NCBI RefSeq assembly: GCF_001681715.1
Contig: NZ_LNWY01000005.1
Span: 124,001 to 188,000, forward strand
Length of the DNA: 64,000 bases
Direction: 5' to 3'
Source: Tritonibacter mobilis
Lineage (GTDB): Bacteria > Pseudomonadota > Alphaproteobacteria > Rhodobacterales > Rhodobacteraceae
This document shows, piece by piece, positions 3,350 through 21,887 of this stretch. Each line of letters begins with the position of its first letter. Position 1 is the first letter of the stretch. The translations under genes were made by a program, and so were the position numbers. The notes beneath the pieces were generated by a model. That model saw nothing but the letters and a program-made list of their open reading frames with translations, ran no database searches and was not told where the DNA came from.

Positions 3350-3373
3350 AGCCGCCTGAAGGAACCACTTTTT
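3331..3373 (+). terminator. hairpin terminator overlapping the end of the hybrid kinase gene
   Basis: CCTTCAGGC (3331-3339) is complementary to GCCTGAAGG (3354-3362), and a TTTTT run follows at 3369-3373. The kinase stop codon (3347-3349) is in the loop, and the T run touches the stop codon of the convergent lpd gene. Confidence 0.7.
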
Positions 3374-4730
3374 AGATGTGCAGAGCGTGACCCAGCGCCT
3401 TGAGGCATGCCTCTTGCAAGCCTTCGGATTGCGTGGGATGCGCGTGCACTGTCGCTGCGATATCTTCCAGACAGGCCCCCATCTCGATCGCGAGTGAGAA
3501 CGCCGCCGAAAGTTCGGAAATCCCTGCTCCAACGCCCTGAAGCCCGACGACGGCATTATCGGCCTCACGCCACACCACACGAATAAACCCATCATCACGT
3601 TCGGTCGTCATCGCACGGCCATTGGCGATGAAGGGGAACTCCGCCGATTTAGTGCCGTCATTCTCTCCCGGCAGCGCGCCGCAGGTAACGATCTCCGGAT
3701 CGGTGAAACAGACTGCGGGGATCGCCCTTTTGTCCCATTCGACGGAATGCCCCGCCAGATATTCCGCAACCATTTCGCCCTGTGCCATCGCCCGATGGGC
3801 CAGCATCGGCTCTCCAGTCACATCCCCAATGGCGTAAATGCCGCGCATGGAGGTCTGGCACATTTTGTCGATGCGAATGAAGGGCCCGTTCATGGTAAGG
3901 GACAGCTCATCAATGCCGATCCCTTGCGTGCGCGCACGGCGTCCGACAGTAACCAGAACGCGCTCGGCCTCCACATCCCCGGCATCTGTTGTCAGCACAG
4001 ACGCCTCATGTGATTGCGCCTTGGTGCCTGTCATCACGGTAACGCCCAACTCCTCCAGACGTTTGTGAACCGGACGGGTCAGCGCCTTGTCGTAAAGCGG
4101 CAGGATACGATCTTCGGCCTCAACAATTGTCACCTTGGAGCCGAGTTTGGCAAAGACCGTACCCAATTCCAGACCGATGTAGCCGCCGCCAACCACCGCG
4201 AGGCTTTTGGGAACTTCGGTCAGCGACAGCGCCTCGGTCGAGGACATAACCGCGCCGCCAAAGGGCAAGAAGGGCAACTCAACCGGGGCCGATCCTGTGG
4301 CGATCACAATGTAGTCCGCGCGGATCTGCGTGTCGCCATCCGCGCCTTTCACCACGACTGTCTTGCCGTCCACGAAACGTGCGCGGCCCGACACCATCTT
4401 TACGCCCGCTTTATGCAAAAGCCCACCGACACCGCCGGTCAGACGCTCCACAATGCCATCTTTCCACGCGACGGTTTGCTTCAGGTCAATGGTCGGCGCA
4501 GAAGCCGAAATTCCCAAGGGACCAGAAGCAGCATGGGTCATCTTGTAAAACTCATCCGCCGCATGGATCATCGCTTTGGACGGGATACAGCCGATATTAA
4601 GGCATGTGCCCCCCGCGCGCGCCTCATCGACGACGACAGTGTCCAATCCCAGCTGCCCTGCGCGAATGGCACAGACATAGCCACCTGGTCCGGCACCGAT
4701 CACCAGAACTTTGCATTTAATGTCAGTCAT
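3372..4730 (-). CDS. lpdA: dihydrolipoyl dehydrogenase (E3 of the branched-chain complex)
   Basis: This 452-residue flavoprotein disulfide reductase reoxidises the lipoyl group of the E2 subunit with NAD+. It shows the FAD motif GAGPGG near residue 12 and the redox-active disulfide GGTCLNIGC (Cys43, Cys48). It also has an NAD-binding GGGYIG motif in the middle, an FAD-contacting AIGD motif, and the C-terminal HAHPTQSE signature with the catalytic His-Glu pair. Its ATG (4728-4730) directly abuts the stop of the E2 gene, so it is the last gene of the branched-chain keto acid dehydrogenase operon. That context suggests the branched-chain-specific E3 (LpdV type) rather than the pyruvate or oxoglutarate one. 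Confidence 0.95.
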   Translation of the reverse strand: MTDIKCKVLVIGAGPGGYVCAIRAGQLGLDTVVVDEARAGGTCLNIGCIPSKAMIHAADEFYKMTHAASGPLGISASAPTIDLKQTVAWKDGIVERLTGGVGGLLHKAGVKMVSGRARFVDGKTVVVKGADGDTQIRADYIVIATGSAPVELPFLPFGGAVMSSTEALSLTEVPKSLAVVGGGYIGLELGTVFAKLGSKVTIVEAEDRILPLYDKALTRPVHKRLEELGVTVMTGTKAQSHEASVLTTDAGDVEAERVLVTVGRRARTQGIGIDELSLTMNGPFIRIDKMCQTSMRGIYAIGDVTGEPMLAHRAMAQGEMVAEYLAGHSVEWDKRAIPAVCFTDPEIVTCGALPGENDGTKSAEFPFIANGRAMTTERDDGFIRVVWREADNAVVGLQGVGAGISELSAAFSLAIEMGACLEDIAATVHAHPTQSEGLQEACLKALGHALHI

Positions 4731-5999
4731 CTAGCCCTCGACAAACAGCATCGCTGGCGTTTCCAGCAGGAGTTTCAGTTTTTGCACAAATACAGCCGCG
4801 TCCCAGCCATCAATCACCCGGTGATCGAAAGAGCAGGAGATATTCATCATCTTGCAGGGCTGAAACTGCTGACCGTCCCAGACAGGGCGCATCTGCAGTT
4901 TGTTTACGCCAACAATCGCCACTTCGGGGTGATTGATGATCGGCGTGGTCGCAATCGCGCCGAGCGCGCCAAGCGAGGTGATAGTGATGGTTCCGCCCAT
5001 CAATTCATCCCGCTTGATCGAGCCATCCCGCGCCGCTTCTGCCAGACGTGTAAGCTCTGACGCATTGTCCCAAAGGCTGCCCGACTCCGCATGATGCACC
5101 ACAGGAACATTGAGCCCGTTCGGTGTTTGCGTGGCGATCCCGACATGGACGCCGCCATGACGATAGATGATCCCTTCGTCATCATCGTAGCGCGCGTTCA
5201 GTTCTGGCTGCTCGCGCACAGCTTCGACAATCGCGCGCATCAGGAACGGCAACAAAGTCAGCTTCGGGCGCTGGTCTTTGTACTTTCGATTCAACGCCGC
5301 GCGCAGATCTTCGAGCGCGTCCATCTCGATCTCTTCAACGATGGTGATATGCGGGATCTGGCGCTTGGAGATTGCCATCTTCTCGGCGATCTTGCGACGC
5401 ATCCCGACCACGCGCACCTCTTCAACGCCGGTGTTTTTGCCGCGCGTGACACTGCCCTGCTGAATGCCACCCGACGCGATCCAGTTTTCTAGGTCCGCAT
5501 GACTGATGCGTCCCCCCGGGCCGCTACCGGGCACTTGTCTCAGATCAACGCCCTCTTCGCGCGCCCGTGCCCTTACAGACGGAGCGGCCAGCGGTTTGGT
5601 ATTCTTGGCCCGCGCGACGGGTTTACTGGTTTTCACCAGAGGGCGCGCGGGTTCTGCCGCCTTGGCCTGAGGTTCAGGCTTGGGTTCGGGCTTATCTTCT
5701 TTGGGGGCGGGCGTTGGCTTTGACGCTTCCGGCGCAGAGGCATCTTCATTGCCATCGCCGTCCACTTCGATACGCACCAAAACGGAGCCGATCGCCAACA
5801 TATCACCGATCTCACCGCCGAGTTCGACCACCTTTCCTTCGACGGAAGAAGGCACTTCTACGGCGGCTTTGTCGGTCATCACAGCGGCTAGCACATCGTC
5901 TTCCTTGACGATATCGCCGGGTTTTACATGCCATTCAGTGAGTTCCGCCTCTGCGATGCCTTCACCCACGTCTGGCAGGCGGATTGCATAGATCCCCAT
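4731..5999 (-). CDS. bkdB: branched-chain alpha-keto acid dehydrogenase E2, dihydrolipoamide acyltransferase
   Basis: This is a 422-residue acyltransferase. It has one lipoyl domain (residues 1-80, lipoylated Lys44 in MTDKAAVEV), a Pro/Ala/Lys/Glu-rich linker (about 90-150), a peripheral subunit-binding domain (about 155-195, ending GSGPGGRI) and a catalytic domain with the HxxxDG motif (His393, Asp397). The start is ATG 5999, preceded by GGAGG; the frame is open further upstream but nothing there looks like a lipoyl domain. It follows the E1 beta stop by four bases. E2 transfers the branched acyl group from E1 to CoA and forms the core of the complex. Confidence 0.94.
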   Translation of the reverse strand: MGIYAIRLPDVGEGIAEAELTEWHVKPGDIVKEDDVLAAVMTDKAAVEVPSSVEGKVVELGGEIGDMLAIGSVLVRIEVDGDGNEDASAPEASKPTPAPKEDKPEPKPEPQAKAAEPARPLVKTSKPVARAKNTKPLAAPSVRARAREEGVDLRQVPGSGPGGRISHADLENWIASGGIQQGSVTRGKNTGVEEVRVVGMRRKIAEKMAISKRQIPHITIVEEIEMDALEDLRAALNRKYKDQRPKLTLLPFLMRAIVEAVREQPELNARYDDDEGIIYRHGGVHVGIATQTPNGLNVPVVHHAESGSLWDNASELTRLAEAARDGSIKRDELMGGTITITSLGALGAIATTPIINHPEVAIVGVNKLQMRPVWDGQQFQPCKMMNISCSFDHRVIDGWDAAVFVQKLKLLLETPAMLFVEG

Positions 6000-6003
6000 C
6001 CGC

Positions 6004-7017
6004 TCAATCCTCCATGCATTTTTTGAGGGCTTCACCGACCCGTTCGGGGCCGGGGAAGTAATTCCATTCCTGCGCGTGCGGATAGGGCGTATCCCAGCCC
6101 GTGACGCGGATAATCGGTGCCTCAAGATGGTAAAAACAATTCTCTTGCACGATCGACATCAATTCCGCGCCAAAGCCTGAGGTCTTGGTCGCCTCATGCA
6201 CGATCACGCAGCGCCCGGTTTTTTCCACAGAAGCCACAATGGTCTCCAGATCCAGCGGCAGCAGGGTGCGCAGGTCGATCACCTCAGCGTCAACGCCCGT
6301 CTCTTCGGCGGCGGCTTCGGCCACGTAGACCATGGTGCCATAGGCCAGCACAGTCACGTCGCTGCCTTCGCGACGAATGGCGGCCTTGCCGAGCGGGATC
6401 GGCTCGTACCCGTCCGAAACATCACCCAAGGGATGCTTCTTCCAACTGGTGACGGGACGGTCGTGATAACCATCAAAAGGCCCATTATAGAGCCGCTTCG
6501 GCTCGAGAAAGATCACCGGATCGGGGTCTTCGATGGCGGCCAAGAGCAGACCTTTGGCATCGCTTGGATTGGACGGCACCACCGTTTTTAGACCCGACGA
6601 ATGGGTGAAAAACGCCTCGGGTGACTGGCTGTGCGTCTGGCCGCCAAAGATACCGCCGCCGGTGGGCATGCGGATCACAATCGGGCAGGTGAAATCCCCT
6701 GCCGAGCGATGCCGCAGACGCGCAGCCTCTGAGACGATCTGATCAATTGCCGGATACACGTAATCGGCAAACTGGATCTCGATCACCGGGCGCAATCCGT
6801 AGGCAGCCATTCCAATCGCGGTGCCGACAATGCCTGCCTCGTTGATCGGCGCATCAAAGCAGCGTGATTTTCCATACTTCTTCTGCAGGCCTGCGGTGAC
6901 GCGGAAGACGCCGCCGAAATAGCCTACATCTTCGCCGTAGACGACCACGCGGTCGTCTTTTTCCATGGCCACATCATGCGCATCGCGCAGGGCCTCGATC
7001 ATGGTCATCTGGGCCAT
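6004..7017 (-). CDS. bkdA2: branched-chain keto acid dehydrogenase E1 component, beta subunit
   Basis: This 337-residue transketolase-like beta subunit pairs with the alpha subunit next to it to decarboxylate 2-keto acids from valine, leucine and isoleucine. Visible family signatures are GEDVGYFGGVFRVT near residue 30, the conserved PINEAGIVG segment, and the C-terminal transketolase domain (about 205-325, DLRTLLPLD). The full length is typical. Its ATG lies one base from the stop of the alpha gene, indicating translational coupling within the operon. Confidence 0.94.
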   Translation of the reverse strand: MAQMTMIEALRDAHDVAMEKDDRVVVYGEDVGYFGGVFRVTAGLQKKYGKSRCFDAPINEAGIVGTAIGMAAYGLRPVIEIQFADYVYPAIDQIVSEAARLRHRSAGDFTCPIVIRMPTGGGIFGGQTHSQSPEAFFTHSSGLKTVVPSNPSDAKGLLLAAIEDPDPVIFLEPKRLYNGPFDGYHDRPVTSWKKHPLGDVSDGYEPIPLGKAAIRREGSDVTVLAYGTMVYVAEAAAEETGVDAEVIDLRTLLPLDLETIVASVEKTGRCVIVHEATKTSGFGAELMSIVQENCFYHLEAPIIRVTGWDTPYPHAQEWNYFPGPERVGEALKKCMED

Positions 7018-7018
7018 G

Positions 7019-9327
<2,309 letters not shown>

Positions 9328-9353
9328 GGTCTCTCCACCGGGCAGAAATCTGA

Positions 9354-9374
9354 TTTGGCGATTTTATCGCAAAA
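9354..9374. promoter_or_regulatory. possible Lrp/AsnC operator in the ldh-regulator divergent promoter
   Basis: GCGAT-TTT-ATCGC (9358-9370) is an inverted repeat with T/A-rich extensions on both sides, midway between the divergent ldh and Lrp-type genes. It has the short-palindrome-in-AT-tracts look of AsnC-family sites. The assignment is by position only. Confidence 0.35.
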
Positions 9375-9449
9375 CACTGGTGGAAAAATCGAACATCCCC
9401 CATGTATATTGCGAATGATTGGTGTTTACCGCTACAAATGAGGCTTATT

Positions 9450-9914
9450 GTGGCTAGATACGCTGCAGACAGGTTAGACCGTGCGATTCTACGCGCTCTG
9501 CGAGAAGACGGTCGTATGTCTCTGGTCCAGCTGTCCGACCGTGTTGGATTATCTCCGACCCCTGTAAAACGACGCCTGCGACAGCTGGAAGACAGCGGGT
9601 TGATCGAAGGTTACGTCGCCCGCATCGATCGCAAGACAGCGGGCTTTGGCATTACTGCGTTTGTATCGGTTGAACTGGAGAAACAGGACGCCGAAGCAGT
9701 GGCTACCTTTCAAAAGAAAGTCGCGCAATTTGAAGAGGTTGTCACAGGCAGCCTGATGACAGGCGCGCAGGATTTCCTGCTGGAAGTCGTGGTGGAGAGC
9801 CTCGAAGAATTCGAGACGTTTCTTCAGACCAAACTCATGCGTGTGGAGGGGCTGCGCGCGGTGCGTTCTCGCTTTGCGCTGCGCAAGTTCATCGACCGCA
9901 CGCGCATCCCTTAA
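9450..9914 (+). CDS. Lrp/AsnC family transcriptional regulator of branched-chain catabolism
   Basis: About 154 residues. An N-terminal winged HTH (LDRAILRALREDGR, then LSDRVGLSPTPVKRRLRQLEDSGLI) is followed by the RAM/AsnC ligand-binding domain (FGITAFVSVELEK to the end). The divergent position next to ldh and bkd suggests a BkdR-like activator that senses branched-chain amino acids (inference). GTG 9450 is chosen because TGAGG (9439-9443) is six bases upstream. ATG 9438 is an alternative that would add four residues but has a poor ribosome site. The gene converges on the iron alcohol dehydrogenase gene. Confidence 0.9.
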   Translation: MARYAADRLDRAILRALREDGRMSLVQLSDRVGLSPTPVKRRLRQLEDSGLIEGYVARIDRKTAGFGITAFVSVELEKQDAEAVATFQKKVAQFEEVVTGSLMTGAQDFLLEVVVESLEEFETFLQTKLMRVEGLRAVRSRFALRKFIDRTRIP

Positions 9915-9985: not shown

Positions 9986-11131
9986 TCAAAGTGCGGCTTT
10001 GAACAGCTGTGTCAGGTTTTCCTCGGTCAGTTTGACGGGATTGCCGCCACAGCTGGGATCAATGATCGCGCCTTTGACCAGTTCGGGGATGGAGTTCTCG
10101 GTGACGCCGAGTTCCGCAAGGCCGCGCGGAATGCCGAGGCTGTCGTTGAACTCCTGCACAAACGCCTTGAACCCGTCAAAGCCGCCCGCGATGCCAAGGT
10201 AAGCCGCCGCCATGTCAAAACGTTCGGCAATCTCAGAGGCGTTGAACTCCAGCACAGCAGGCATGCAGACCGCATTGGTGGTGCCGTGGTGGGTGTTGAA
10301 ATGTGCGCCAATAGGGTGGCTCATCGCGTGGATTGCGCCGAGGCCCTTCTGGAACGCGGTCGCGCCCATGGCCGCCGCAGACATCATATGCGCTCGCGCC
10401 TCTATGTCGGTGCCATCTGCGTAGGCGCGCGGCAGGTAATCCTTGACCAGGCGCATACCTTCAAGCGCCATGCCCTGCGACATCGGGTGGTAATGCGGCG
10501 AGGAGAAGGCCTCGACACAATGGGCGAAGGCATCAAGGCCGGTGCCGGCAGTGATGAACTTGGGCATACCCACGGTCAGTTCGGGATCGCAGATCACCAC
10601 GGTGGGCAGGACCTTGGGGTGGAAGATGATCTTTTTCTGATGGGTGACGCTGTCGGTGATGACAGAGGCGCGGCCCACCTCAGACCCGGTGCCCGCAGTA
10701 GTGGGCACCGCGATGATCGGCGCGATGGCGTCGGCATCGGCGCGGGTCCACCAATCGCCAATGTCCTCAAAATCCCAGACCGGGCGAGTCTGGCCCGCCA
10801 TGAAGGCGACCATCTTGCCCAGATCGAGACCGGAGCCGCCGCCAAAGGCGATCACCCCGTCATGGCCGCCTGCCTTGTAGGCCGCGACACCGGCATCGAG
10901 GTTCTTCTCGTTCGGGTTGGGATCTACCTCGGAGAACATCCCGCGACCAAGGCCGGCGGCCTCCATGATGTCGAGGGTGGATTTTGTCACGGGCAGATCC
11001 GCAAGCCCCTTGTCGGTGACCAGCAGTGGCTTCTCGATCCCGGCCTGCGCGCAGGCATCGGCCAGTTCCTTGATCCGGCCTGCGCCGAATTTGATTGCGG
11101 TCGGGTATGACCAGTTTCCAATGAGAGACAT
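9986..11131 (-). CDS. iron-containing alcohol dehydrogenase
   Basis: This 381-residue group III metal-dependent alcohol dehydrogenase has the NAD-binding GGGSGLD motif near 95. The metal-ligand region includes GTGLDAFAHCVEAF (Asp and His) and GAIHAMSHPIGAHFNTHHG (two more His). The start is ATG 11131, eight bases after AGGA; the ATG two codons upstream is too close to that site. It is the last gene of the TRAP/ligase operon. By context it would oxidise a hydroxyl group on the imported substrate or on its gamma-glutamyl adduct (inference); the actual substrate is not readable from the sequence. Confidence 0.9.
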   Translation of the reverse strand: MSLIGNWSYPTAIKFGAGRIKELADACAQAGIEKPLLVTDKGLADLPVTKSTLDIMEAAGLGRGMFSEVDPNPNEKNLDAGVAAYKAGGHDGVIAFGGGSGLDLGKMVAFMAGQTRPVWDFEDIGDWWTRADADAIAPIIAVPTTAGTGSEVGRASVITDSVTHQKKIIFHPKVLPTVVICDPELTVGMPKFITAGTGLDAFAHCVEAFSSPHYHPMSQGMALEGMRLVKDYLPRAYADGTDIEARAHMMSAAAMGATAFQKGLGAIHAMSHPIGAHFNTHHGTTNAVCMPAVLEFNASEIAERFDMAAAYLGIAGGFDGFKAFVQEFNDSLGIPRGLAELGVTENSIPELVKGAIIDPSCGGNPVKLTEENLTQLFKAAL

Positions 11132-11157
11132 CAGCATGTTCCTGTGGTGAGCCGGAG

Positions 11158-11222
11158 GTAGGGGCGCTGCCCCCGCTTGCCATACGGCAAGCTCCCCCGA
11201 GATATTTTCAAGAAGTTGAAGG
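11158..11222 (+). repeat. dispersed intergenic repeat, copy A
   Basis: A GC hairpin GGGGCGCTGCCCC is followed by a second hairpin (GCTTGCC/GGCAAGC), the core CCCCCGAGATATTTTC and an AAGAAG tail. The same architecture recurs five more times in this window (12650, 41518, 56511, 56587, 63762). Here it fills the gap between the aldehyde dehydrogenase and alcohol dehydrogenase genes, in the orientation opposite to transcription. Confidence 0.7.
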
Positions 11223-11225
11223 GCC

Positions 11226-12608
11226 TCAGCCCGTGACTTTTTTCAGGTGGTAGGACTTGGGGCGGGTCAGGTTGTGATAGCCGATCACCGAAAGGCCACC
11301 GCCGCGCCCGGTGTTCTTGCAGCCGGTCCAGCACAGAGCCGGATCGAGGTAGTCGGCGCGGTTCATGAACACGGTGCCGGTCTCGATCTGGTCACCCACC
11401 GCCTGTGCGCGCTCCAGATCCTTGGTCCAGATCGAGGCGGTGAGACCAAATTCGCTGTCGTTCATCAGCTTGATCGCTTCTTGGTCGGAAGAGACCTTCA
11501 TGATGCCAACGACCGGGCCGAAACTCTCGTCGCGCATCACCCGCATCTCATGAGTGACATTGGTCAGGATCTGCGGTGTCAGATAGGCGCCGCCATCATC
11601 GGCCTCCATGGTGGCGATATGGGCCACGGCGCCCTGTTCGACCGCCTCGGAGATCTGGTCGCGCACCTCTTTGGCAAAGCGCACATTGGCCATCGGGCCG
11701 ATGGTCGTCTCCGCCTCAAGCGGGTTGCCGAGCTTGTAGCCGTTGACCACCGCCAGCGCCTTTTCAAGGAAGCTGTCATAGAGGCTTTCATGCACGTAGA
11801 TGCGTTCGATGCCACAGCAGCACTGGCCGGAGTTGAACATGGCCCCGTCGATCAGCGTGTCGACCGCCGCATCCACATCGGCGTCCTCCATGACATAGCC
11901 GGGATCCTTGCCGCCCAGTTCGGTGCCCACGCCGGTGAAAGTGCCCGCTGCGGCACGTTCCATTGCCTGACCACCGCCGACGGAGCCGGTGAAGTTCACA
12001 AAATCAAACGCCTTCTCGGCAATCAGTGCCGAAGTGATGTCGTGATCGAGGAACACATTCTTGAACACATCCTGGGGTACGCCTGCCGCGTGGAAGGCCT
12101 GCGCCATACGCTCGCCTACCAGCAGGGTCTGGGTTGCATGTTTCAGCACCACGGTGTTGCCCGCGATCAGCGCCGGAGCAACCGTATTGATCGCTGTCAT
12201 GTAAGGATAGTTCCAAGGCGCCACCACAAAGACCACGCCATGGGGAATGCGCTTGATGTAGCGTTTGAACGTCGCGTCCTCACCGACCTCGATATCCGCC
12301 AGCGACTCAGCCGCGATCTTCGCCATATGCGATGCGCGTTCGTTGAACCCGCCAAACTCGCCGCCAAACCGCACGGGACGGCCCATCATATGGGCAAGCT
12401 CGGGCACGATGTCATCGTTCATCTCGCCAATGGCGGCGACACCTGCCATCACGAGGTCAATGCGCTCCTGAAGCGGGCGCGCCGCCCAAGCCTTCTGCGC
12501 AGTCCGCACCGCAGCCACCTCGGCGCGGGCGGCGTCCAGATCCAGCGTCTCGCGGCTGGCGTAGACCGATCCATCGATCGGCGAAATACAATTCAGTGTC
12601 TTGCCCAT
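11226..12608 (-). CDS. aldehyde dehydrogenase family protein
   Basis: This 460-residue NAD(P)-dependent aldehyde dehydrogenase has the cofactor segment PWNYPYMTAINTVAPAL (131-147), FTGS near 206-209, the general base Glu230 in TELGGKDP, and the nucleophile Cys264 in FNSGQCCCG. Three consecutive cysteines (263-265) mark the active site. It is slightly short for the family (about 480-500). The start is ATG 12608 after GGAGGAG; the frame continues upstream through a repeat element without homology. It sits between the glutamine synthetase-like ligase and the iron alcohol dehydrogenase, suggesting sequential alcohol-aldehyde-acid oxidation (inference). Confidence 0.92.
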   Translation of the reverse strand: MGKTLNCISPIDGSVYASRETLDLDAARAEVAAVRTAQKAWAARPLQERIDLVMAGVAAIGEMNDDIVPELAHMMGRPVRFGGEFGGFNERASHMAKIAAESLADIEVGEDATFKRYIKRIPHGVVFVVAPWNYPYMTAINTVAPALIAGNTVVLKHATQTLLVGERMAQAFHAAGVPQDVFKNVFLDHDITSALIAEKAFDFVNFTGSVGGGQAMERAAAGTFTGVGTELGGKDPGYVMEDADVDAAVDTLIDGAMFNSGQCCCGIERIYVHESLYDSFLEKALAVVNGYKLGNPLEAETTIGPMANVRFAKEVRDQISEAVEQGAVAHIATMEADDGGAYLTPQILTNVTHEMRVMRDESFGPVVGIMKVSSDQEAIKLMNDSEFGLTASIWTKDLERAQAVGDQIETGTVFMNRADYLDPALCWTGCKNTGRGGGLSVIGYHNLTRPKSYHLKKVTG

Positions 12609-12649
12609 TGGCCAACTCCTCCGGGGGCGCAGGATACGGCCCCGATTAT

Positions 12650-12697
12650 CTTCATCTTCTCCCAAATATCCCGGGGGTGCGGGGGCTGGCCCCCGCC
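12650..12697 (-). repeat. dispersed intergenic repeat, copy B
   Basis: Read on the minus strand this is GGGGGCCAGCCCCC, then the core CCCCCGGGATATTTGGG, then AGAAGATGAAG. It lies between the ligase stop (12711) and the aldehyde dehydrogenase start, in the same orientation as transcription. It matches copies A, C, D1, D2 and E. Confidence 0.7.
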
Positions 12698-12710
12698 TAT
12701 CCGCCAGATA

Positions 12711-14063
12711 TCAGGCTTTCTCAAACCCGCGTGCGATCTCGTAATCTGTCACCACACGGTTGAACTCTTCGATCTCCCACTCCGCCGCGCGGGCGTAATG
12801 GGTGATCACCTCTTCGCCAAACGCCTCGCGCAGCATGTCGGACGCCAAAAGCGCCTCGCGCGCCTCAAGCAGGCTGCGCGGAATATGTTGCGGAGCGTCG
12901 TTCGCATAGGCGTCGCCGTTGAACGGATCTTGCAGGTCCAGCTTTTCCTCGATCCCCTTGAGGCCCGCCGCCAGCATTGCCGCCTGTGCCAGATAGGGGT
13001 TCATGTCGGACCCCGGAACCCGGCATTCAACCCGTACGCCTTTGGTGCTGTCACCGCACAGGCGGAACGCCGCCGTACGATTGTCCACCGACCAAACCAC
13101 CTGCGTCGGCGCAAAGGTGCCCTTGGCGAAACGCTTGTAGCTGTTGATGTAGGGCGCCATGAAATAGGTGTAGTCAGCGGCGTATTTCAACAGCCCCGCC
13201 ATATAATGGTCCATCAACTTGGACTTGCCCAGCGGTGCGCTCTCATCGAAAAACGCGTTTGACCCTTCTTTCCACAACGACTGATGCACATGCGCGGCAG
13301 AGCCGACCCGCTCGTGGTGCCATTTGGGAAGGAAAGTCGCGGCAAAGCCCTGCTGATGCGCGATTTCTTTAATACCATGTTTGGCGATAGTGTGATGATC
13401 CGCAGTTGCGAGCGCCGCATCATATTTGATGTTGAGCTCTTCCTGACCAGCCTCTGCCTCGCCCTTGGAACCTTCAATCGGTAGCCCCATGGCGCGCAGA
13501 TGATTGCGGATCGGGCGCATCACAGGTTCCTCCTTGGAGGTCTGCATGATGCTGTAATCTTCGTTGTAGGTGGAGATCGGTTCAAGGTTCTGAAACCCAC
13601 CTGCGGCGATCTCATCATGGGTGCCTTTAAAGAGGAAGAACTCCAGCTCGGTCGCCATCACTGGCGACAGGCCCAGCTCTTCGCAGCGGGCGATCTGCGC
13701 CTTCAGCATTTCGCGCGGCGAATGCGCGACGGGTGCATGGGTGTGGTGATCAATCACATCGCACAAAACCATGGCAGTCCCGTCGAGCCATGGCACCGGC
13801 CGCAGCGTCGAGAGGTCCGGCTTCATGATATAGTCGCCGTAGCCGCGCTCCCAACTGGTGGAGGCATAGCCATCGGGCGTGGCCATCGCAAGGTCGGTGG
13901 CCAGCAGATAGTTGCAGCAGTGGGTTTCACCCTCGGCCATCTCAAGAAAGGCCTCGGCGTGGAAGCGTTTGCCCATCAGGCGGCCTTGCATATCCACAAT
14001 GCAAACCAAAACCGTATCCACCTGTCCGGCGGCGATCTGTTCCTTGAGATCCTCGAAAGTCAT
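12711..14063 (-). CDS. glutamine synthetase-like gamma-glutamyl ligase (PuuA/IpuC type)
   Basis: This 450-residue protein has the glutamine synthetase fold: beta-grasp N domain (1-100), catalytic ELEFF near 145, EAEAGQEELNI near 210, AHVHQSLW near 260, NSYKRF near 315, and RVECRVPGSDMNPYL near 355. The adenylylation tyrosine segment of assimilatory GlnA is not evident. Relatives with this pattern (PuuA, IpuC, actinobacterial GlnA3/GlnA4) ligate glutamate to amines rather than ammonia. The neighbouring dehydrogenases and amidohydrolase support such a catabolic role (inference). ATG 14063 is chosen with GGGA upstream. Confidence 0.88.
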   Translation of the reverse strand: MTFEDLKEQIAAGQVDTVLVCIVDMQGRLMGKRFHAEAFLEMAEGETHCCNYLLATDLAMATPDGYASTSWERGYGDYIMKPDLSTLRPVPWLDGTAMVLCDVIDHHTHAPVAHSPREMLKAQIARCEELGLSPVMATELEFFLFKGTHDEIAAGGFQNLEPISTYNEDYSIMQTSKEEPVMRPIRNHLRAMGLPIEGSKGEAEAGQEELNIKYDAALATADHHTIAKHGIKEIAHQQGFAATFLPKWHHERVGSAAHVHQSLWKEGSNAFFDESAPLGKSKLMDHYMAGLLKYAADYTYFMAPYINSYKRFAKGTFAPTQVVWSVDNRTAAFRLCGDSTKGVRVECRVPGSDMNPYLAQAAMLAAGLKGIEEKLDLQDPFNGDAYANDAPQHIPRSLLEAREALLASDMLREAFGEEVITHYARAAEWEIEEFNRVVTDYEIARGFEKA

Positions 14064-14138
14064 CTGGCGTTCCCTGTTGTTCTGACAGGGGGCAAGGTAA
14101 AACCCCGCCCCCGACATATGTTGGTTTTATTGTTGCGA

Positions 14139-15173
14139 TCAGCCGTAGCGGTACGGACGACCAGCCTTCGCCATATCGGCGTTGTATTTTTTGAAGACTT
14201 CCACGACCTTTGCCTTGGTCTCGGACTCGGCGGCGATTTCGTCCCAGAACTTCACGGCGGCGTCTTCGACCTGCTGCCATTCGGCATCGGGGATCGATGT
14301 GAGCTTCAGCTTGTCGCCATTCACGCGCAAAGACGCCTCGCCACCCCAGTACCACCACTGACGGTAGTAGTGCGACTGATCTGTACAGACGCGGAACAGA
14401 GCCTGTAGATCCTCAGGCAGCTCATTCCAGCGATCCATGTTGGCAAAGAAGCTCCCCGCCCATGCACCGGAAATGTTGTTGGTCAGGAAGTAGTTGGTCA
14501 CATCGGCCCAACCCACGGTGTAGTCCTCGGTGATCCCGGACCACGCAACGCCATCCAGCTCGCCGGTCTGCATCGCAACTTCGATGTCTTCCCACGGCAG
14601 GGTCACAGGCACCACGCCAAACTGGCTCAGGAAACGACCCGCAGTCGGGAAGGTAAAGACCCGCTTGCCTTTGAGATCCTCAAGCGAGTTGATCGGATCT
14701 TTGGTGGCAAAGTGGCAGGGATCCCAGGAACCGGCAGAGATATGCTTGACGCCAACTTTGGAATATTCCGCGTCCCAGATCTCATTGAGGCCGTATTGGT
14801 TAAACAGCACGGGCACGTCGAGGGAATAGCGGGATGCAAATGGGAAGTAGCCGCCAAAGACGGTGACTTCGGTCGGCGACGCCATGGAGTCATCATCTGA
14901 CTGCACCGCATCAATCGTGCCTTTTTGCATGGCGCGGAACAGCTCGCCGGTTGGGACAAGCTGATCGGCGTAGAACAGCTCGATCTGCATGCGGTCGCCT
15001 GCGATCTTGTTAAACATCTCGATCGCCGGATCAATCACATGAGCCGCAAGCGCAGGACCTGCATAGGTCTGCATACGCCATGTGATTTTGCCGGAAGCCA
15101 GAGCCGGGGCAGCCAGTGGCGCAGCCGCAGCGCCCAGCGCTGTGGTCTTTAGAAAATTACGACGTGTTGTCAT
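14139..15173 (-). CDS. dctP: TRAP transporter substrate-binding protein, DctP family
   Basis: This 344-residue periplasmic receptor carries a twin-arginine-type signal (TRRNFLK near residue 3, hydrophobic to the ALAS cleavage region near 27). The mature part is a DctP/TakP-like solute receptor (YADQLVPTGELFRAMQKGTIDAVQ, then LKGKRVFTFPTAGRFLSQFG and QTGELDGVAWSG). It delivers the substrate to the DctQM membrane proteins encoded upstream in the same operon. The start is ATG 15173, ten bases after GGAG. The ligand cannot be predicted with confidence; most relatives bind carboxylates, but the neighbouring enzymes point to an amine or amino alcohol. Confidence 0.9.
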   Translation of the reverse strand: MTTRRNFLKTTALGAAAAPLAAPALASGKITWRMQTYAGPALAAHVIDPAIEMFNKIAGDRMQIELFYADQLVPTGELFRAMQKGTIDAVQSDDDSMASPTEVTVFGGYFPFASRYSLDVPVLFNQYGLNEIWDAEYSKVGVKHISAGSWDPCHFATKDPINSLEDLKGKRVFTFPTAGRFLSQFGVVPVTLPWEDIEVAMQTGELDGVAWSGITEDYTVGWADVTNYFLTNNISGAWAGSFFANMDRWNELPEDLQALFRVCTDQSHYYRQWWYWGGEASLRVNGDKLKLTSIPDAEWQQVEDAAVKFWDEIAAESETKAKVVEVFKKYNADMAKAGRPYRYG

Positions 15174-15202
15174 GTCTTTCAGTCTCCTCTGTCGGACTTG
15201 GT

Positions 15203-15940
15203 TCAATGGCTGTGTGCGCAGGGCTTCAGCCGTCTGAATCCTTCCCGGAGCCGTTGCGGTGCATTCTCGCGAAGGATGTCGCCATGCGCGAGCACGACGA
15301 TTTTGGGGTGCCAATCCAGCATACGGGTCAGTGCATTGCGCAATTTGTCCCGACCGCCTGTGAAGGACATCCAGATGTCCAGCGGCATTTTTCCGTGGGG
15401 CGCGAGAATTCCCGCAACCCATGCAAAGGGCCGCACCCACAAGGGCAGATCCTTTGCGTGCATGTTCTCAATGAGGTCAGTCAGCACAAGCGTGCGGCTC
15501 TTTTTGTGGAAAAAGACGACCTCAGTGTGAACCTTACTTCCCTCGACAATGAGTTGGTCTAAGTCCTCTGCCCATTCAGGCGCGGGTGCTTCGGCCAAAT
15601 CTCGGTCGAAAGTAATCTTTACATTCCGGCTTTCTGCACGTGCGCGCACTCCCGGTGACGCCCAACTGGTGGCCTCAGGATAGCGAGCCGCCCAGTCCCC
15701 GATATAGGCGTAGTGAATCCAGTTTGGCGAGACCAGATGCCGGATCGGCCCCAGCTCTTCAAGTGCCGCTGCCAGTTCTGGTGTCCAGTTAATGGGCGAG
15801 TGCAAAAACAGATCCCCGTTGGCCAGCCGAATGACCGTCATCCGCGTCGGGAAAGGGATCCGGTAAAAGTCGATGGTCGGGCCATCTACGATCCAGATAT
15901 CCTCCGCCAATGGCGTCAGAAGGGGCGCCTCACTTGCCAT
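15203..15940 (-). CDS. DUF4336 domain protein (metallo-beta-lactamase-like fold)
   Basis: This 245-residue cytoplasmic protein has no signal peptide or membrane segment. It resembles the DUF4336 family, which keeps the overall outline of a metallo-beta-lactamase fold (DIWIVDGPTIDFYRIPFPTRM at the start, SPNWIHYAYIGDW, LTDLIENMH, VVLAHGDIL). The HxHxDH metal motif of active hydrolases is not visible, so enzymatic function is uncertain. It overlaps the dctM stop by 11 bases and sits between the membrane and receptor genes of the TRAP transporter, which ties it to that system. Its function is unknown. Confidence 0.8.
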   Translation of the reverse strand: MASEAPLLTPLAEDIWIVDGPTIDFYRIPFPTRMTVIRLANGDLFLHSPINWTPELAAALEELGPIRHLVSPNWIHYAYIGDWAARYPEATSWASPGVRARAESRNVKITFDRDLAEAPAPEWAEDLDQLIVEGSKVHTEVVFFHKKSRTLVLTDLIENMHAKDLPLWVRPFAWVAGILAPHGKMPLDIWMSFTGGRDKLRNALTRMLDWHPKIVVLAHGDILRENAPQRLREGFRRLKPCAHSH

Positions 15941-17249
15941 ACACGGTCTCCGGCAGCCAGAGCGCGATTTGCGGGAACACCATGATGATTCCGAGCGCTA
16001 CAACCATGATCGCCACAAAGGGCACGATGGAGCGGTAGATATCGGTAAGCGAAATCTCTGGCGGGGCCATAGCCCGCATCAGGAACAGATTGTAGCCGAA
16101 GGGAGGCGTCATATAGGCGATCTGGGTGGTGATCGTATAGAGCACGCCATACCAGACCAGATCAAAGCCAAGTGCCGCAACCAGAGGCACATAGAGCGGT
16201 GCCACAATCACCAGCATCGCGGTATCATCAAGGAAGGTGCCCATGATGATGAAGCTGAGCTGCATCAGGATCAGGATCATCCAAGGATTGAGGCCCAGCT
16301 GCTCGGTGAACAGGCTATCGATGGCCTTCACGGCACCAAGCCCGTCAAACACCGCGCCAAAACCAAGCGCTGCAAGGATGATCCACATGAACATGCAGGA
16401 AATCGCCAGCGTGTTCTTGGTGCAGGATTCAAAGATCTTCCACGTCATGCGCCGCTTAGCAATGGATGCAGCCAGCGCGGTCAGCGCACCGATGGCGGAG
16501 CTTTCCACCAGCGAGGTCCAGCCATTCACGAAAGGCACCATCATCGCGGCAAAGATCAAGAGCGGCAGAGCACCGGCCCCGAGGAGGCGTAGTTTCTCGG
16601 CACGCGGCACCTCATGGGCATCTTCCATCGCAGGACCGAGCGCCGGGTTCGCCTTGCAGCGCAGCCAGATGTAGATGATGAACAGGCCCGCCATCATCAG
16701 CCCCGGCAACACGCCTGCAAGCCACAGTTGCCCCACCGGCTGGCGCGCGATCATCGCATAGAGCACCAGCACCACCGAGGGCGGCACCAGAATGCCGAGC
16801 GAAGACCCGGCCTGAATAACACCGGTCACCATGGTTTTGTCATAGCCACGGCGCAGCAGCTCCGGCAGCGCGATCGTGGCGCCGATCGCCATACCCGCGA
16901 CCGACAGACCGTTCATCGCCGAAACCAGAACCATCAGACCAATGGTGCCGATTGCGAGACCGCCATTGATCGGCCCCATCCAGACATGGAACATCTTGTA
17001 AAGGTCATCGGCGAGGCGGCTCTCGCTCAGCACGTAGCCCATGAAGATGAACATCGGCAGCGTCAGCAGCGGATACCATTTCATCAGCTTCATCGCCGCT
17101 GAGAACGGGATATCGTACCCCCCCACGCCCCAGAGCAGGAGCGCCGCCACGGCCCCAACGGCACCGATCGCACCAAAGACGCGCTGCCCGGTGAAGAGCA
17201 TCAGCATCATCGATGCAAACATGAAGATGGCGATATATTCCTGGCTCAT
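15930..17249 (-). CDS. dctM: TRAP transporter large permease, DctM family
   Basis: This 439-residue membrane protein has about 12 hydrophobic segments. Family landmarks are LFTGQRVFGAIG at the start, PLLTLPMFIFMGYVLS, IQAGSSLGILVPPSVVLVLY in the middle, and the C-terminal PPFGYNLFLMRAM. It forms the sodium-driven transport channel with DctQ and the receptor. The start ATG 17249 overlaps the dctQ stop (ATGA). The frame is open upstream inside dctQ but without homology. Confidence 0.93.
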   Translation of the reverse strand: MSQEYIAIFMFASMMLMLFTGQRVFGAIGAVGAVAALLLWGVGGYDIPFSAAMKLMKWYPLLTLPMFIFMGYVLSESRLADDLYKMFHVWMGPINGGLAIGTIGLMVLVSAMNGLSVAGMAIGATIALPELLRRGYDKTMVTGVIQAGSSLGILVPPSVVLVLYAMIARQPVGQLWLAGVLPGLMMAGLFIIYIWLRCKANPALGPAMEDAHEVPRAEKLRLLGAGALPLLIFAAMMVPFVNGWTSLVESSAIGALTALAASIAKRRMTWKIFESCTKNTLAISCMFMWIILAALGFGAVFDGLGAVKAIDSLFTEQLGLNPWMILILMQLSFIIMGTFLDDTAMLVIVAPLYVPLVAALGFDLVWYGVLYTITTQIAYMTPPFGYNLFLMRAMAPPEISLTDIYRSIVPFVAIMVVALGIIMVFPQIALWLPETVYGK

Positions 17250-17833
17250 GAGAGGCGCTCGCTTGGGATGTCGTGGCCCTTGAGGCGGGCAATGTCTTTG
17301 AAGAGTTCCGAGATGGCCTGCAACAGCATCAGGAAAAAGCCGAAGACCATGATGGATTTGATCGGCCAGATGAAGGGGCGCCACGCGGTGGAGGCACGCT
17401 CCATATGACCCACTTCCTCAGCCCCGGTGATCAAACCCCAGAAGAAGGCAAAGGGATTGTCGCCCCAATAGCCTAAGGAATAGGCCGTGGAGCCGAGGCC
17501 GCCGTAGAACAGAATGCCCAGATAGGTGATGAGCGCCAGCACGGTGAAGGCGTCAAACCAGGCTTTCCGACGCGTCGACCAGTTGTGATAGAACAGATCC
17601 ATACGCACGTTTGACCCGATCTGAATCGAATAGGGGCCACCGAGAATGTAGTAGGTGACCATCGCAAACTGGGCCATTTCCAGCGTCCAGAGCGAAGGCA
17701 GAAAGAAGGTCTTGGAGATCGAGGACCACAGGAGGATCCCCATCATCGCAAACAGCCCCCACATCATCAGGCGGCCGATGCGATAGTTCACCGCATCCAC
17801 CACTCGTACATATCCCAGCATGGCTCCGATCAT
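17246..17833 (-). CDS. dctQ: TRAP transporter small permease, DctQ family
   Basis: This 195-residue membrane protein has four hydrophobic helices (about 20-40, 55-80, 95-115, 150-175). It has the DctQ pattern of a polar LWTLEMAQFAMVTYYILGGPYSIQIGSNVRMD segment in the second half, given here in parts: LWTLEMAQFAM then GSNVRMD. ATG 17833 has GGAGGAGAGG upstream and overlaps the amidohydrolase stop by ATGA. It is the small membrane subunit that pairs with DctM. Confidence 0.92.
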   Translation of the reverse strand: MIGAMLGYVRVVDAVNYRIGRLMMWGLFAMMGILLWSSISKTFFLPSLWTLEMAQFAMVTYYILGGPYSIQIGSNVRMDLFYHNWSTRRKAWFDAFTVLALITYLGILFYGGLGSTAYSLGYWGDNPFAFFWGLITGAEEVGHMERASTAWRPFIWPIKSIMVFGFFLMLLQAISELFKDIARLKGHDIPSERLS

Positions 17834-18603
17834 GCGAACCTCTCCTCCAGAGTGGCGCGAATCCAAGGCGCGAGCACCGCAGCCCAATGGTCCTGCTGAT
17901 CCGCTGTGGCAATCAGATCGTTGCGGATCTCGAGCATCACGTTCAGCAATCCGTTGTCGCAACCGTGCATATCCAGCGTATGGGCGACGCCGTCGCTGGC
18001 GCTGTAGGGTTCATTGAGGCGCGTATTCCATTGCAGGCCCTCGGGTTGATGCGCCAGCATCGCCTGCGCAAAGCGGTCATCGCGGCCGTGCAGCAGACCC
18101 AGTTCCACCGCGCGGGTTTCGCCCTTGTAGACCGGGGTGAAGCTGTGCACCGTAACCATCAGGCGCAGTGCCGTTTTGCGGGCGGCGATTTCCGCGGCCA
18201 AAGCGGCGCGGAACGGTTCATAGACCGCCTCCACCCGCTGCGCGCGCGCCGCATCCGAAAGGTCGCGGTTGCCGGGAACGTCGAAAATCTCTGAGGTTGC
18301 GGGAATCGCTGTCGGCGATTCAGGCGGGCGGTTCAAATCATAGACCAGCCGCGAAATACACCCCTCAATCAGTGGCCCTTGCAACAGTTCAGCCAGCTTG
18401 CGCGCCACACCCAGTGCACCAGGATCCCAGGCGATGTGGCTCTGACGGACCTCATCATCCAAGCCCAGCGCATCCAACTGTGTTGGAATCCAATTGGCAG
18501 CATGTTCACAGACAATGATAACCTCCGCATTTGCAGCGGAGGGCGTCTTGGCGAAGGAGGGACCGAAGTCAGAGGCAAGGGTATCCGTATTCATATGAAG
18601 CAT
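17830..18603 (-). CDS. N-formylglutamate amidohydrolase family protein
   Basis: A protein of about 257 residues with the FGase/HutG-type fold: VIIVCEHAANWIP near 27-40 (metal ligands Glu and His), DLNRPP near 113, MVTVHSFTP near 165 (metal His), and a late HTLDMHGCDNG region. Family members hydrolyse an N-acyl or amide bond next to glutamate. There are no histidine-degradation genes here, so N-formylglutamate itself is unlikely. Hydrolysis of a gamma-glutamyl amide made by the downstream ligase is a fitting guess (inference). It is the first gene of the operon, divergent from the RpiR gene. ATG 18594 is an equally possible start. Confidence 0.85.
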   Translation of the reverse strand: MLHMNTDTLASDFGPSFAKTPSAANAEVIIVCEHAANWIPTQLDALGLDDEVRQSHIAWDPGALGVARKLAELLQGPLIEGCISRLVYDLNRPPESPTAIPATSEIFDVPGNRDLSDAARAQRVEAVYEPFRAALAAEIAARKTALRLMVTVHSFTPVYKGETRAVELGLLHGRDDRFAQAMLAHQPEGLQWNTRLNEPYSASDGVAHTLDMHGCDNGLLNVMLEIRNDLIATADQQDHWAAVLAPWIRATLEERFA

Positions 18604-18707
18604 GCTCTTCAGCCTGCCCCCTTCTGTCAATATACTTTCTGTAAAAATTCTTTCATCACGATCAAACCTGTAATAAAATGCTAAAAACACGAGCAGGAGG
18701 GCCGTGG

Positions 18708-19565
18708 ATGCCGACGATCGCCGAGAAACTCAAAGCACGTGAATCTGACCTGACACGCGCAGAGCGGCAACTATCGGCAGCTATTCTGGACAACTACCCA
18801 ATTCCTGGCCTCGGCAGCATCACGGAGCTTGCCGAACTGGCTGAGGTCTCCACGCCCACGGTGGCGCGTATGGTGCAAAAACTAGGGTTCTCGGGGTATC
18901 CGGAATTTCAACATGCCCTGCGGGAAGAGTTACGCGAAATCATCTCTAACCCAGTGGAAAAACGCGCAGAACAGACTCCCGATCTGCCAGAATCCCATAT
19001 GCTGAACCGGTACGCGGTCGGTGTTTACGACAACATTCGGGCGACGCTGGAAAACGTAAATCTCGATGAGTTTGATACGCTCTGCACACTATTGGCAGAC
19101 ACAGATCGGCGGGTGCATATCGCAGGCGGAAGACTAAGTGGAACGCTCGCGCAGAACTTCTACCTGCACCTGCAAATGGTGCGAAGAGATGTCTTCATGA
19201 TCCCACCGCGTGCCTCATGGACACACTCAGTTCTGGACCTCTTGCCCGGTGATACGCTGATTCTTTTTGACATCCGCCGCTATGAAAATGCCACGCTGTT
19301 GCTTGCCGAAATGGCGCATGAGCGCGGGGTGCAGGTTGTTCTGCTCACCGATCAGTGGCGCTCTCCGATCCAAAAAGTGGCAAAGTTCACCTTTGCCGCA
19401 CGTATTGCTGTCCCCTCCGCATGGGATTCCGGCGTAGCACTTCTTTTGTTGATCGAGAGCATAATCGCCAAGATCCAAGAGGATCACTGGGAGACGGTCA
19501 AAGCACGCACGGACGAGTTGGAAGCCGCTTTCGACCGTACGCGCCTGTTTCGCAAATTCACCTGA
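18708..19565 (+). CDS. MurR/RpiR family transcriptional regulator
   Basis: A 285-residue regulator with an N-terminal RpiR-type HTH (about 1-77, ITELAELAEVSTPTVARMVQKLGFSGY, shown as ELAEVSTPTVARMVQKLGF) and a SIS sugar-isomerase-like sensor domain (about 120-255, VHIAGGRLSGTLAQN). The start ATG 18708 lies eight bases after AGGAGG. It is divergent from the TRAP/ligase operon and 61 bases upstream of an acyl ligase and a thiolase on its own strand, so it could control both sides. RpiR members often sense phosphosugars, but catabolic relatives sense other small molecules; the ligand is unknown. Confidence 0.9.
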   Translation: MPTIAEKLKARESDLTRAERQLSAAILDNYPIPGLGSITELAELAEVSTPTVARMVQKLGFSGYPEFQHALREELREIISNPVEKRAEQTPDLPESHMLNRYAVGVYDNIRATLENVNLDEFDTLCTLLADTDRRVHIAGGRLSGTLAQNFYLHLQMVRRDVFMIPPRASWTHSVLDLLPGDTLILFDIRRYENATLLLAEMAHERGVQVVLLTDQWRSPIQKVAKFTFAARIAVPSAWDSGVALLLLIESIIAKIQEDHWETVKARTDELEAAFDRTRLFRKFT

Positions 19566-19626
19566 GGTCTGTTCCCGGCCCCGATCCAGCGATACCTTGC
19601 GCTGATAGGGACACGTGAGACGAACA

Positions 19627-20781
19627 ATGACCAACAGCCACGACAGATTTCAACTCTCGCCAGAGACACGAGTCCTGACACCAGACGTGAAGGGGCTGTC
19701 GGAATTGTTGCTGGCGCTGCGTGAAGGACACTCCATTCTCGCACGTCCAAGCGACACTCCCATCGAGATCCGTCCAGAGCCGGTGCAGTGGCTCTATTGT
19801 CAAAGCTCTGGCTCCACCGGTTTTGCCAAAACCATTCGACGCACGCCGCACAGTTGGATCAGCAGCTTCGAGATGGATCGAGAGATATTTGCGCTCCACT
19901 CAGGGGATGTCTACGCGAGCCTCGGCAACCTCTCTCACTCACTGACCTTATTTGCAGCCGTCTCCGCCTGCCATATCGGTGCGGATCTGGCGATGCTTGG
20001 CGGGAGCGGGCCGCGCAGGCAACTGGAGCAGCTGGAGACGCTGGGGGTAACGGTGCTATATGCCACGCCAGCACAGCTACGCCTGCTATTGCGTGCGGCA
20101 GAAGAGAAGTACCTGCCTCACGTCCGGCTGCTGTTTTCATCTGGCGGCAAGCTTGACGATGACACGCGGTCAAACTTGATGCACCTGCTCCCACACTGCA
20201 ACATTCATGAGATCTTTGGCGCGACGGAGACAAGCTACATGACCCTTGCAGGCCCGGATGCACCGGCGGGTTCTGTTGGCAAGCCCTACCCGAGTGTCGA
20301 GATTAAGGTCACGGATGCCGATGCGAACGGCGTGGGTGAGATCTGGATCCGCAGCCCGTTTGTCTTTGACGGCTATGCAGAAGGTCACAGCGCTGAAACC
20401 CGCTGGGAGGAGGGGTGGCTTTCCATTGGCGAAATGGGCAGGCTCGATGCTTCTGGAAATCTTTACCCGAAGGGGCGGCGTAACCGCATGGTCACGGTCG
20501 CCGACAAAAACGTATTTCCCGAAGAGATCGAAGCTGTCTTAATGCGCGCTGATGGCGTGGAGATGGCGGTTGCGCTCTCTTTTCCTGATGAACTGCGCGG
20601 GCATCAAATCGTGGCGGTTGTTCAGGGGAGCGCTGATCTGAACGCACTCAGGCATCTGTGCCGCGCCGAAATCGGCGGCCATGCGGTCCCGCGTGAGTTC
20701 CATGTAGTTGAGTCCATTCCGATGCTGGCTGCGGGCAAACCTGACCTGCAAACCTTAAAGCGCATGTGGGACGCATCCTGA
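19627..20781 (+). CDS. short AMP-forming acyl/aryl ligase (ANL superfamily)
   Basis: This 384-residue adenylate-forming enzyme has the P-loop-like SSGSTG at residues 60-65 with Lys68, FGATETSYM (A5-type, near 195), a GEMGRLD variant of the usual GD motif, the hinge region PKGRRNRMVTVADKNVFPEEIE, and the catalytic Lys in AAGKPDLQTLKRMW near the end. The P-loop normally sits near residue 170, so about 100 residues of the N domain are missing. The gene nevertheless starts cleanly at ATG 19627 and looks intact. The stop overlaps the thiolase start (TGATG). The substrate is unknown. Confidence 0.82.
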   Translation: MTNSHDRFQLSPETRVLTPDVKGLSELLLALREGHSILARPSDTPIEIRPEPVQWLYCQSSGSTGFAKTIRRTPHSWISSFEMDREIFALHSGDVYASLGNLSHSLTLFAAVSACHIGADLAMLGGSGPRRQLEQLETLGVTVLYATPAQLRLLLRAAEEKYLPHVRLLFSSGGKLDDDTRSNLMHLLPHCNIHEIFGATETSYMTLAGPDAPAGSVGKPYPSVEIKVTDADANGVGEIWIRSPFVFDGYAEGHSAETRWEEGWLSIGEMGRLDASGNLYPKGRRNRMVTVADKNVFPEEIEAVLMRADGVEMAVALSFPDELRGHQIVAVVQGSADLNALRHLCRAEIGGHAVPREFHVVESIPMLAAGKPDLQTLKRMWDAS

Positions 20782-21887
20782 TGCCACGGATCATTGCTGC
20801 GCGCAGAACGGCTGTGGTGCCAAAGGGTGGGAAATTTGCCTTATTAGAGCCGCATGAGCTGGCCTCACCAGTTATTCGCGCCTGCCTTGCAGATGCAGGT
20901 ATTGCGGCACATGAGGTCGGAGAGTTGATCCTGTCAAATGCACTTGCCGGGGGTGGTAACCCCGCCAGAATTGCAGCATTGGCAGCGGGTTTACCCGAAC
21001 ATGTGGCCGGGCTCAGCATAGATCGCCAATGTGCAGGCGGGCTTGATGCGATCCTGCTCGGGCATGCCTTGGTGCAGGCAGGACACCATAAGGTGGTCAT
21101 CGCCGGTGGCGCTGAGAGTTACTCCCGCCGCCCGCTGCGCAGCCGCACCTTTGCTGATGGACGCCCGCCCGAGCCCTACTCACAAGCCCGATTTACACCT
21201 TGGCCAGAACGCGACCCAGACATGGCTCAGGCGGCGGCGGAACTGTCACGCAAGATTGGTATCACGCGCGCAGAACAAGACGCATGGGCCCAGCGCAGCC
21301 ATGCGCTTGCTTTGTCACATGCGACCTGCCGCATGCGTGAAATCACTCCAGTAAGTGATGTTTCCGAGGATGCCTTCACCCGCAATTTGACGTCGCGCCA
21401 TTGCGAGCGGGCCAGAGTTGTGAGCGGTGATATCACAGCCGCAAATATGGCGGTTGCAGCGGATGCAGCGGCATTTGTGGTCATTGTCAGCGACCAAATG
21501 GCAAAACGCCTAAATATGCGGGGGCTGACCCTGATCGAGGGCGCAACCCTTGGCGCGGTACCCGATCAACCCGGCCTTGCCCCAATCTCTGCCATCAAAC
21601 ACGTGCTGAAACGCGCAGACGTAGATCACAAAACCCTACAGCGGGCCGAGATTATGGAAGCCTTTGCAGTTCAGGCGCTGGCCTGCATCCGCGGCGCCCA
21701 TCTGTCTGATAAGATCGTAAACCCCGCTGGTGGAGCATTGGCGCAAGGGCATCCGGTTGGGGCATCCGGTGCGATCCTTGTCGTGCGGCTGTTTCATGCC
21801 TTGCGGACAGGTGATGCCCCTGCCCTTGCAGCAATTGCCGCTGCGGGTGGCATTGGCAGTGCGGCACTTTTTGAAGCCATAGAATAA
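20781..21887 (+). CDS. thiolase-like protein with altered active site
   Basis: This 368-residue thiolase-fold protein keeps the nucleophile Cys84 (IDRQCAGG) and the GHPVGASG histidine (His324). The canonical NEAFA is MEAFA (Met292 for Asn), and the C-terminal CxG cysteine is absent (IAAAGGIGSAA). It may be a condensing or hydrolytic variant rather than a standard acetyl-CoA acyltransferase (inference). It is translationally coupled to the short AMP ligase (TGATG at 20779). The two most likely act on the same acyl substrate. Confidence 0.85.
   Translation: MPRIIAARRTAVVPKGGKFALLEPHELASPVIRACLADAGIAAHEVGELILSNALAGGGNPARIAALAAGLPEHVAGLSIDRQCAGGLDAILLGHALVQAGHHKVVIAGGAESYSRRPLRSRTFADGRPPEPYSQARFTPWPERDPDMAQAAAELSRKIGITRAEQDAWAQRSHALALSHATCRMREITPVSDVSEDAFTRNLTSRHCERARVVSGDITAANMAVAADAAAFVVIVSDQMAKRLNMRGLTLIEGATLGAVPDQPGLAPISAIKHVLKRADVDHKTLQRAEIMEAFAVQALACIRGAHLSDKIVNPAGGALAQGHPVGASGAILVVRLFHALRTGDAPALAAIAAAGGIGSAALFEAIE

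Follow-up and report, generated by a model that had tools for sequence, protein, structure and literature searches.

In Phaeobacter sp. MED193, Westermann et al. (2023) described a single operon (MED193_10021-10056) that encodes an RpiR regulator, a gamma-glutamylglycine amidohydrolase (GGAH), EtoV, EtoW and EtoX, an ethanolamine gamma-glutamylase (ETAGA), a gamma-glutamylacetaldehydeamide dehydrogenase (GAADDH) and a gamma-glutamylethanolamide dehydrogenase (GETADH) (PMC10132767). EtoX bound ethanolamine with a Kd of 7.9 ± 1.9 µM and showed no binding of the other compounds that the text names, and GGAH, EtoX, ETAGA, GAADDH and GETADH were higher on phosphorylethanolamine (PMC10132767). EtoX was also raised in the no-phosphate condition (PMC10132767, Table 2), so its response is partly non-specific to phosphorylethanolamine. 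The pathway is termed predicted in the legend of Fig. 5, and the genes are called closely related to the Chromohalobacter salexigens and Agrobacterium tumefaciens genes of Vetting et al. 2015 (PMC10132767).

For C. salexigens, a pathway has been proposed with the enzyme families PF00120, PF00465, PF00171 and PF05013, with the N-formylglutamate amidohydrolase (FGase) family included (PMC9397018, Table 2). The C. salexigens protein Csal_0678 is an ethanolamine binder in which the arginine usual for TRAP proteins is missing (PMC4646407), and in structure 4UAB, Csal_0678 with ethanolamine, a platform residue Glu220 holds the ligand (PMC12410723, the CqsR paper). In Streptomyces coelicolor, GlnA4 is a demonstrated gamma-glutamylethanolamide synthetase that carries F331 at the flap position and lacks D50 (PMC6529630). 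The main texts of PMC6529630 and PMC9397018 do not name a TRAP transporter; 'trap' occurs once, as an instrument.

Gene content and organization

The window, a 64,000-nucleotide stretch of Tritonibacter mobilis DNA, carries eight genes on its minus strand between positions 9986 and 18603. The ORF list verified all eight together with their order and coordinates, and each matches a Pfam family above the cut-off. First in order is the FGase-type amidohydrolase (17830..18603; PF05013, 140 bits), a putative GGAH and counterpart of MED193_10026, which begins with an ATG at 18603. It is followed by the TRAP small permease gene etoV (DctQ; 17246..17833; PF04290), whose start is an ATG overlapping the FGase stop, and the large permease gene etoW (DctM; 15930..17249; PF06808). 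A DUF4336 protein with a predicted metallo-beta-lactamase (MBL) fold (15203..15940; PF14234) separates these from etoX (14139..15173), a TRAP solute-binding protein (DctP; PF03480) that carries a Tat-type signal (TIGR01409) and probably binds ethanolamine. The remaining genes encode a glutamine synthetase (GS)-like ligase (12711..14063; Gln-synt_C, PF00120), a putative ETAGA; an aldehyde dehydrogenase (11226..12608; Aldedh, PF00171), a putative GAADDH acting on the gamma-glutamyl aldehyde; and an iron-type alcohol dehydrogenase (9986..11137; Fe-ADH, PF00465), a putative GETADH acting on gamma-glutamyl-ethanolamide, with its stop at 9986.

With gene starts set by hand at likely ATG codons, FGase and etoV overlap by 4 bp, etoV and etoW by 4 bp, and etoW and the DUF4336 gene by 11 bp; the downstream gaps, in order DUF4336/etoX, etoX/ligase, ligase/aldehyde dehydrogenase and aldehyde/alcohol dehydrogenase, are 29, 75, 102 and 88 bp. 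These tight overlaps and short gaps make a single operon likely, and together with the ORFs and Pfam matches they bear out the earlier note, which had read the eight genes as one operon in this order. A divergent RpiR/MurR-type regulator on the plus strand (18678..19565; HTH_6 and SIS domains), the counterpart of MED193_10021, belongs with the operon but falls outside the span given in that note; it is presumed to be the operon's regulator. Promoter and terminator scans gave 6 matches against 4.0 in shuffled sequence and 10 against 8.0, little excess in either case, and as the promoter scan was barely above the shuffles we claim no promoter.

Read from the translations, the region at 3372-9914 of the window holds a gene resembling leucine dehydrogenase and, after it, genes resembling the E1 alpha, E1 beta and E2 components of branched-chain 2-oxoacid dehydrogenase. 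A divergently oriented Lrp/AsnC regulator lies at 9402-9914, its assignment backed by a domain search. Beyond the RpiR gene, an AMP-dependent ligase and a thiolase form a pair at 19615-21887 on the plus strand, which is also found in near-relative loci (L086-L088 and L109).

Comparison with published systems

The window shares with the MED193 operon the same RpiR regulator and the same order GGAH-EtoV-EtoW-EtoX-ETAGA-GAADDH-GETADH, and adds the DUF4336 gene. We compared proteins with our Roseobacter sp. MED193 locus, L143, which we take to be the published one because organism name and gene order agree. Identities were 91% for the alcohol dehydrogenase, 83% for the aldehyde dehydrogenase, 70% for the GS-like ligase, 88% for EtoX, 71% for EtoW and 61% for EtoV, whereas the FGase (50%) and RpiR (47%) are far less like their MED193 counterparts. 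At L143 about 65 bp separate etoW from etoX, leaving no room for the DUF4336 gene that the window has there, and the main text of PMC10132767 does not mention DUF4336.

The window also shares four enzyme families with the C. salexigens pathway of Csal_0678, and here PF00120, PF00465, PF00171 and PF05013 stand together with the TRAP genes in one operon. The S. coelicolor GlnA4 pathway has the same four proposed reactions, and in both its ligase and ours Phe occupies the position of the flap Glu (PMC6529630, PMC9397018); its regulator is EpuRI, in contrast to RpiR in the window (PMC9397018). Judged by sequence, the operon is the already published eto system, now in another genus. The FGase-type hydrolase is already part of the published ethanolamine pathway, and the pairing of a TRAP transporter with such a hydrolase, which the earlier note had offered as new, was in print (PMC10132767, PMC9397018).

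Proposed pathway

Based on these comparisons, we put the probability at roughly 94% that the operon is an eto system for ethanolamine uptake and gamma-glutamyl catabolism; for this strain, we infer which substrate each enzyme takes and what RpiR does. EtoX would capture periplasmic ethanolamine and EtoVW would import it. The GS-like ligase would then join ethanolamine to glutamate at the expense of ATP, the alcohol dehydrogenase would oxidize the hydroxyl of the resulting gamma-glutamyl-ethanolamide to the aldehyde, and the aldehyde dehydrogenase would convert this gamma-glutamyl aldehyde to gamma-glutamylglycine. Hydrolysis by the FGase-type amidohydrolase would release glycine and regenerate glutamate, with the whole operon presumably under RpiR control.

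Support observed here comes from gene content, gene order, the correspondence with MED193, the replaced flap residue of the ligase and the absence of EutB. By analogy, the relatives lend support through ethanolamine binding by MED193 EtoX and Csal_0678 and through the five operon proteins raised on phosphorylethanolamine. The route deduced in the earlier note, in which an amino alcohol is gamma-glutamylated, oxidized twice and hydrolysed to an amino acid and glutamate, agrees with the reported MED193 operon (PMC10132767) and the C. salexigens pathway (PMC9397018), as does ethanolamine, its example of a substrate; the pathway is real and had already been described. A search for EutB (PF06751) gave no match in this genome while the E. 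coli control was positive, and we therefore rejected the eut pathway (ethanolamine ammonia-lyase), which has its substrate in common with the operon but differs in chemistry.

The solute-binding protein and its ligand

EtoX is identical to the PDB 4uab chain at 264 of 316 residues (83.5%). A second entry, 4xf5, has a sequence identical to that of 4uab, and we take its ligand to be 2-amino-1-propanol; the substrates may therefore include further small amino alcohols. This alaninol complex would favor a reading in which the operon's chief substrate is a different small amino alcohol (alaninol, serinol or aminopropanol), handled by identical chemistry, and ethanolamine takes second place. We consider that reading very improbable, as both Csal_0678 and MED193 EtoX, the close relatives of the window's EtoX, are reported to bind ethanolamine, and the MED193 operon proteins respond to phosphorylethanolamine. 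The Glu nearest to the ligand-coordinating Glu220 of Csal_0678, at chain position 217 (motif TED), is shared by the window's protein and does not vary across the 16 rows of an alignment of 16 chosen sequences (L023, with a stop in the given span, was left out); equating it with Glu220 would assume a 3-residue numbering offset.

EtoX proteins fall into two types, about 69-99% and 58-67% identical to that of the window; the operons that hold them are of one kind. The second type, which occurs family-wide (for example at L074-L079, about 61-67% identical) in eto operons that are ordinary in all other respects, may prefer a different ligand.

The ligase and the amidohydrolase

The closest solved relative of the ligase is 5dm3 (E 9.4e-209), which we take to be Csal_0679, the neighbor of Csal_0678. 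Csal0679 has been counted among the glutamine-synthetase genes of C. salexigens (PMC5299690). L189, the GlnA of this genome, scores above the GlnA cut-off and reads FEAP where the operon ligase reads TFAP; the flap Glu (E327, in the ammonium site of ammonia-using GlnA) is thus kept in L189 and replaced by Phe in the ligase. Phe also occupies this position in 53 of 53 motif-bearing ligases from the best 80 of 577 EtoX loci. This count took ORFs of at least 350 aa whose start lies inside the locus and which show an NSYKR...AP pattern, one that Glu would also match, and compares with a GS match in 67 of the 80 loci. The Asp50 (DGSS) region of GlnA has no clear match in the ligase: DGYASTSW aligned to DGSSIAGW of GlnA, in a stretch where the alignment is uncertain. 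The flap Glu and D50, both missing from GlnA4, are also reported as lost in an amine ligase of 1-naphthylamine breakdown (PMC11335346).

For the FGase-type protein, the closest solved relative is 2odf, Atu2144. Two other FGase matches in the genome, at 251 and 235 bits, outscored that of the operon (141 bits in the same genome scan). It is scarcely tenable that the GS-like gene encodes a glutamine synthetase for ammonia assimilation and that N-formylglutamate is the substrate of the FGase, the TRAP grouping being incidental: the best family names are indeed generic (FGase, and GS models TIGR00653 and TIGR03105 at about 250 bits, under their cut-offs of 429 and 470), but operon order is conserved across loci, and we rejected this reading on the ligase's flap residue, the separate GlnA with DGSS and flap Glu, and the two better-scoring FGases.

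Distribution of the operon

A scan of genome contigs yielded 577 confirmed EtoX candidate loci, of which the best 80 were taken. At a threshold of E <= 1e-60, 87 of the 149 genomes from the family and 17 of the 18 from the genus contain an EtoX relative; each figure includes the window's own genome. Among the best 80 of 577 loci, where many contigs end early, matches were found to EtoW in 80, EtoV in 76, GS in 67, FGase in 64, aldehyde dehydrogenase in 62, alcohol dehydrogenase in 60, RpiR in 60 and DUF4336 in 2. Fifty-three of these 80 loci were fully covered, with at least 5 kb upstream and at least 5.5 kb downstream. RpiR, FGase, EtoV, EtoW, EtoX, GS, aldehyde and alcohol dehydrogenase are complete and in order in 41 of the 53, and at least one of the eight is missing from 11. 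The one other locus, L109 (Epibacterium sp. Ofav1-8, with DNA common to the same-genus genome G159), has all eight yet did not pass the order test, a failure that seems to stem from an overlap between its FGase and RpiR ORFs. Gene order is thus not due to chance. The co-occurrence that the earlier note had wanted checked in other genomes holds for seven of its genes, joined by RpiR, and fails for DUF4336.

Thirteen of the best 80 of 577 loci have no GS match, several of them at contig ends. No alternative ligase was recognised among 17 proteins from seven GS-less loci, which belong to assorted families apart from acyl-CoA dehydrogenases in three loci (L155, L165 and L167). In the stretches fetched, EtoVWX stands without a GS-like ligase at L113, L125, L145, L155, L159, L160, L166, L172, L181 and L186; the contigs of L160, L166 and L181 end shortly past EtoX. 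EtoVWX adjoins an MttB-type methyltransferase at L113 and lies downstream of urocanase-type genes at L166. At L165 and L167 the order is FGase-EtoVWX-aldehyde dehydrogenase-alcohol dehydrogenase, with no GS-like ligase between EtoX and the aldehyde dehydrogenase and two acyl-CoA dehydrogenase genes upstream; their ligase gene may be at some other place.

The DUF4336 gene in the etoW-etoX slot

The slot between etoW and etoX is held by a single DUF4336 clade (support 100/99) in seven genomes, and the 34 other DUF4336 loci that we read all lie outside eto operons. The alignment and tree leave out L034 (the window again), L199, L201 and matches without an assigned locus, as well as L043, L047, L052, L053, L054 and L060 (stops, partial or split). 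DUF4336 is an accessory gene of some eto operons. We rejected it as a general operon gene, since it was found in two of the best 80 of 577 EtoX loci (L109 and L122) and fills the slot in 4 of the 18 genomes of the genus and 3 of the 394 of the family (the window's own, G272 and G405), with the window's genome counted each time. A plasmid search returned only relatives below 60% identity (41 records), and in the literature we found no report of a DUF4336 gene in this slot.

The predicted fold of the protein is of the MBL type. HxHxDH, the canonical MBL metal motif, occurs nowhere in it; the likely region, by our own placement, reads PNWIHYAYI, and the metal motif is predicted to be degraded. 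Across 26 aligned rows, H145, D155 and H219 never vary and H76 hardly does. We regard it as possible, if rather doubtful, that the slot gene is a genuine undescribed eto component, either an MBL-fold hydrolase acting on a pathway intermediate or side product or a backup for the poorly conserved amidohydrolase.

Discussion

The DUF4336 gene specific to this slot, with its predicted MBL fold, has no counterpart in the MED193 operon and adds a small new feature to some eto operons. Beyond this, our analysis extends the eto pathway, as read from sequence, to a further marine genus, in which almost every genome (17 of 18) has EtoX.
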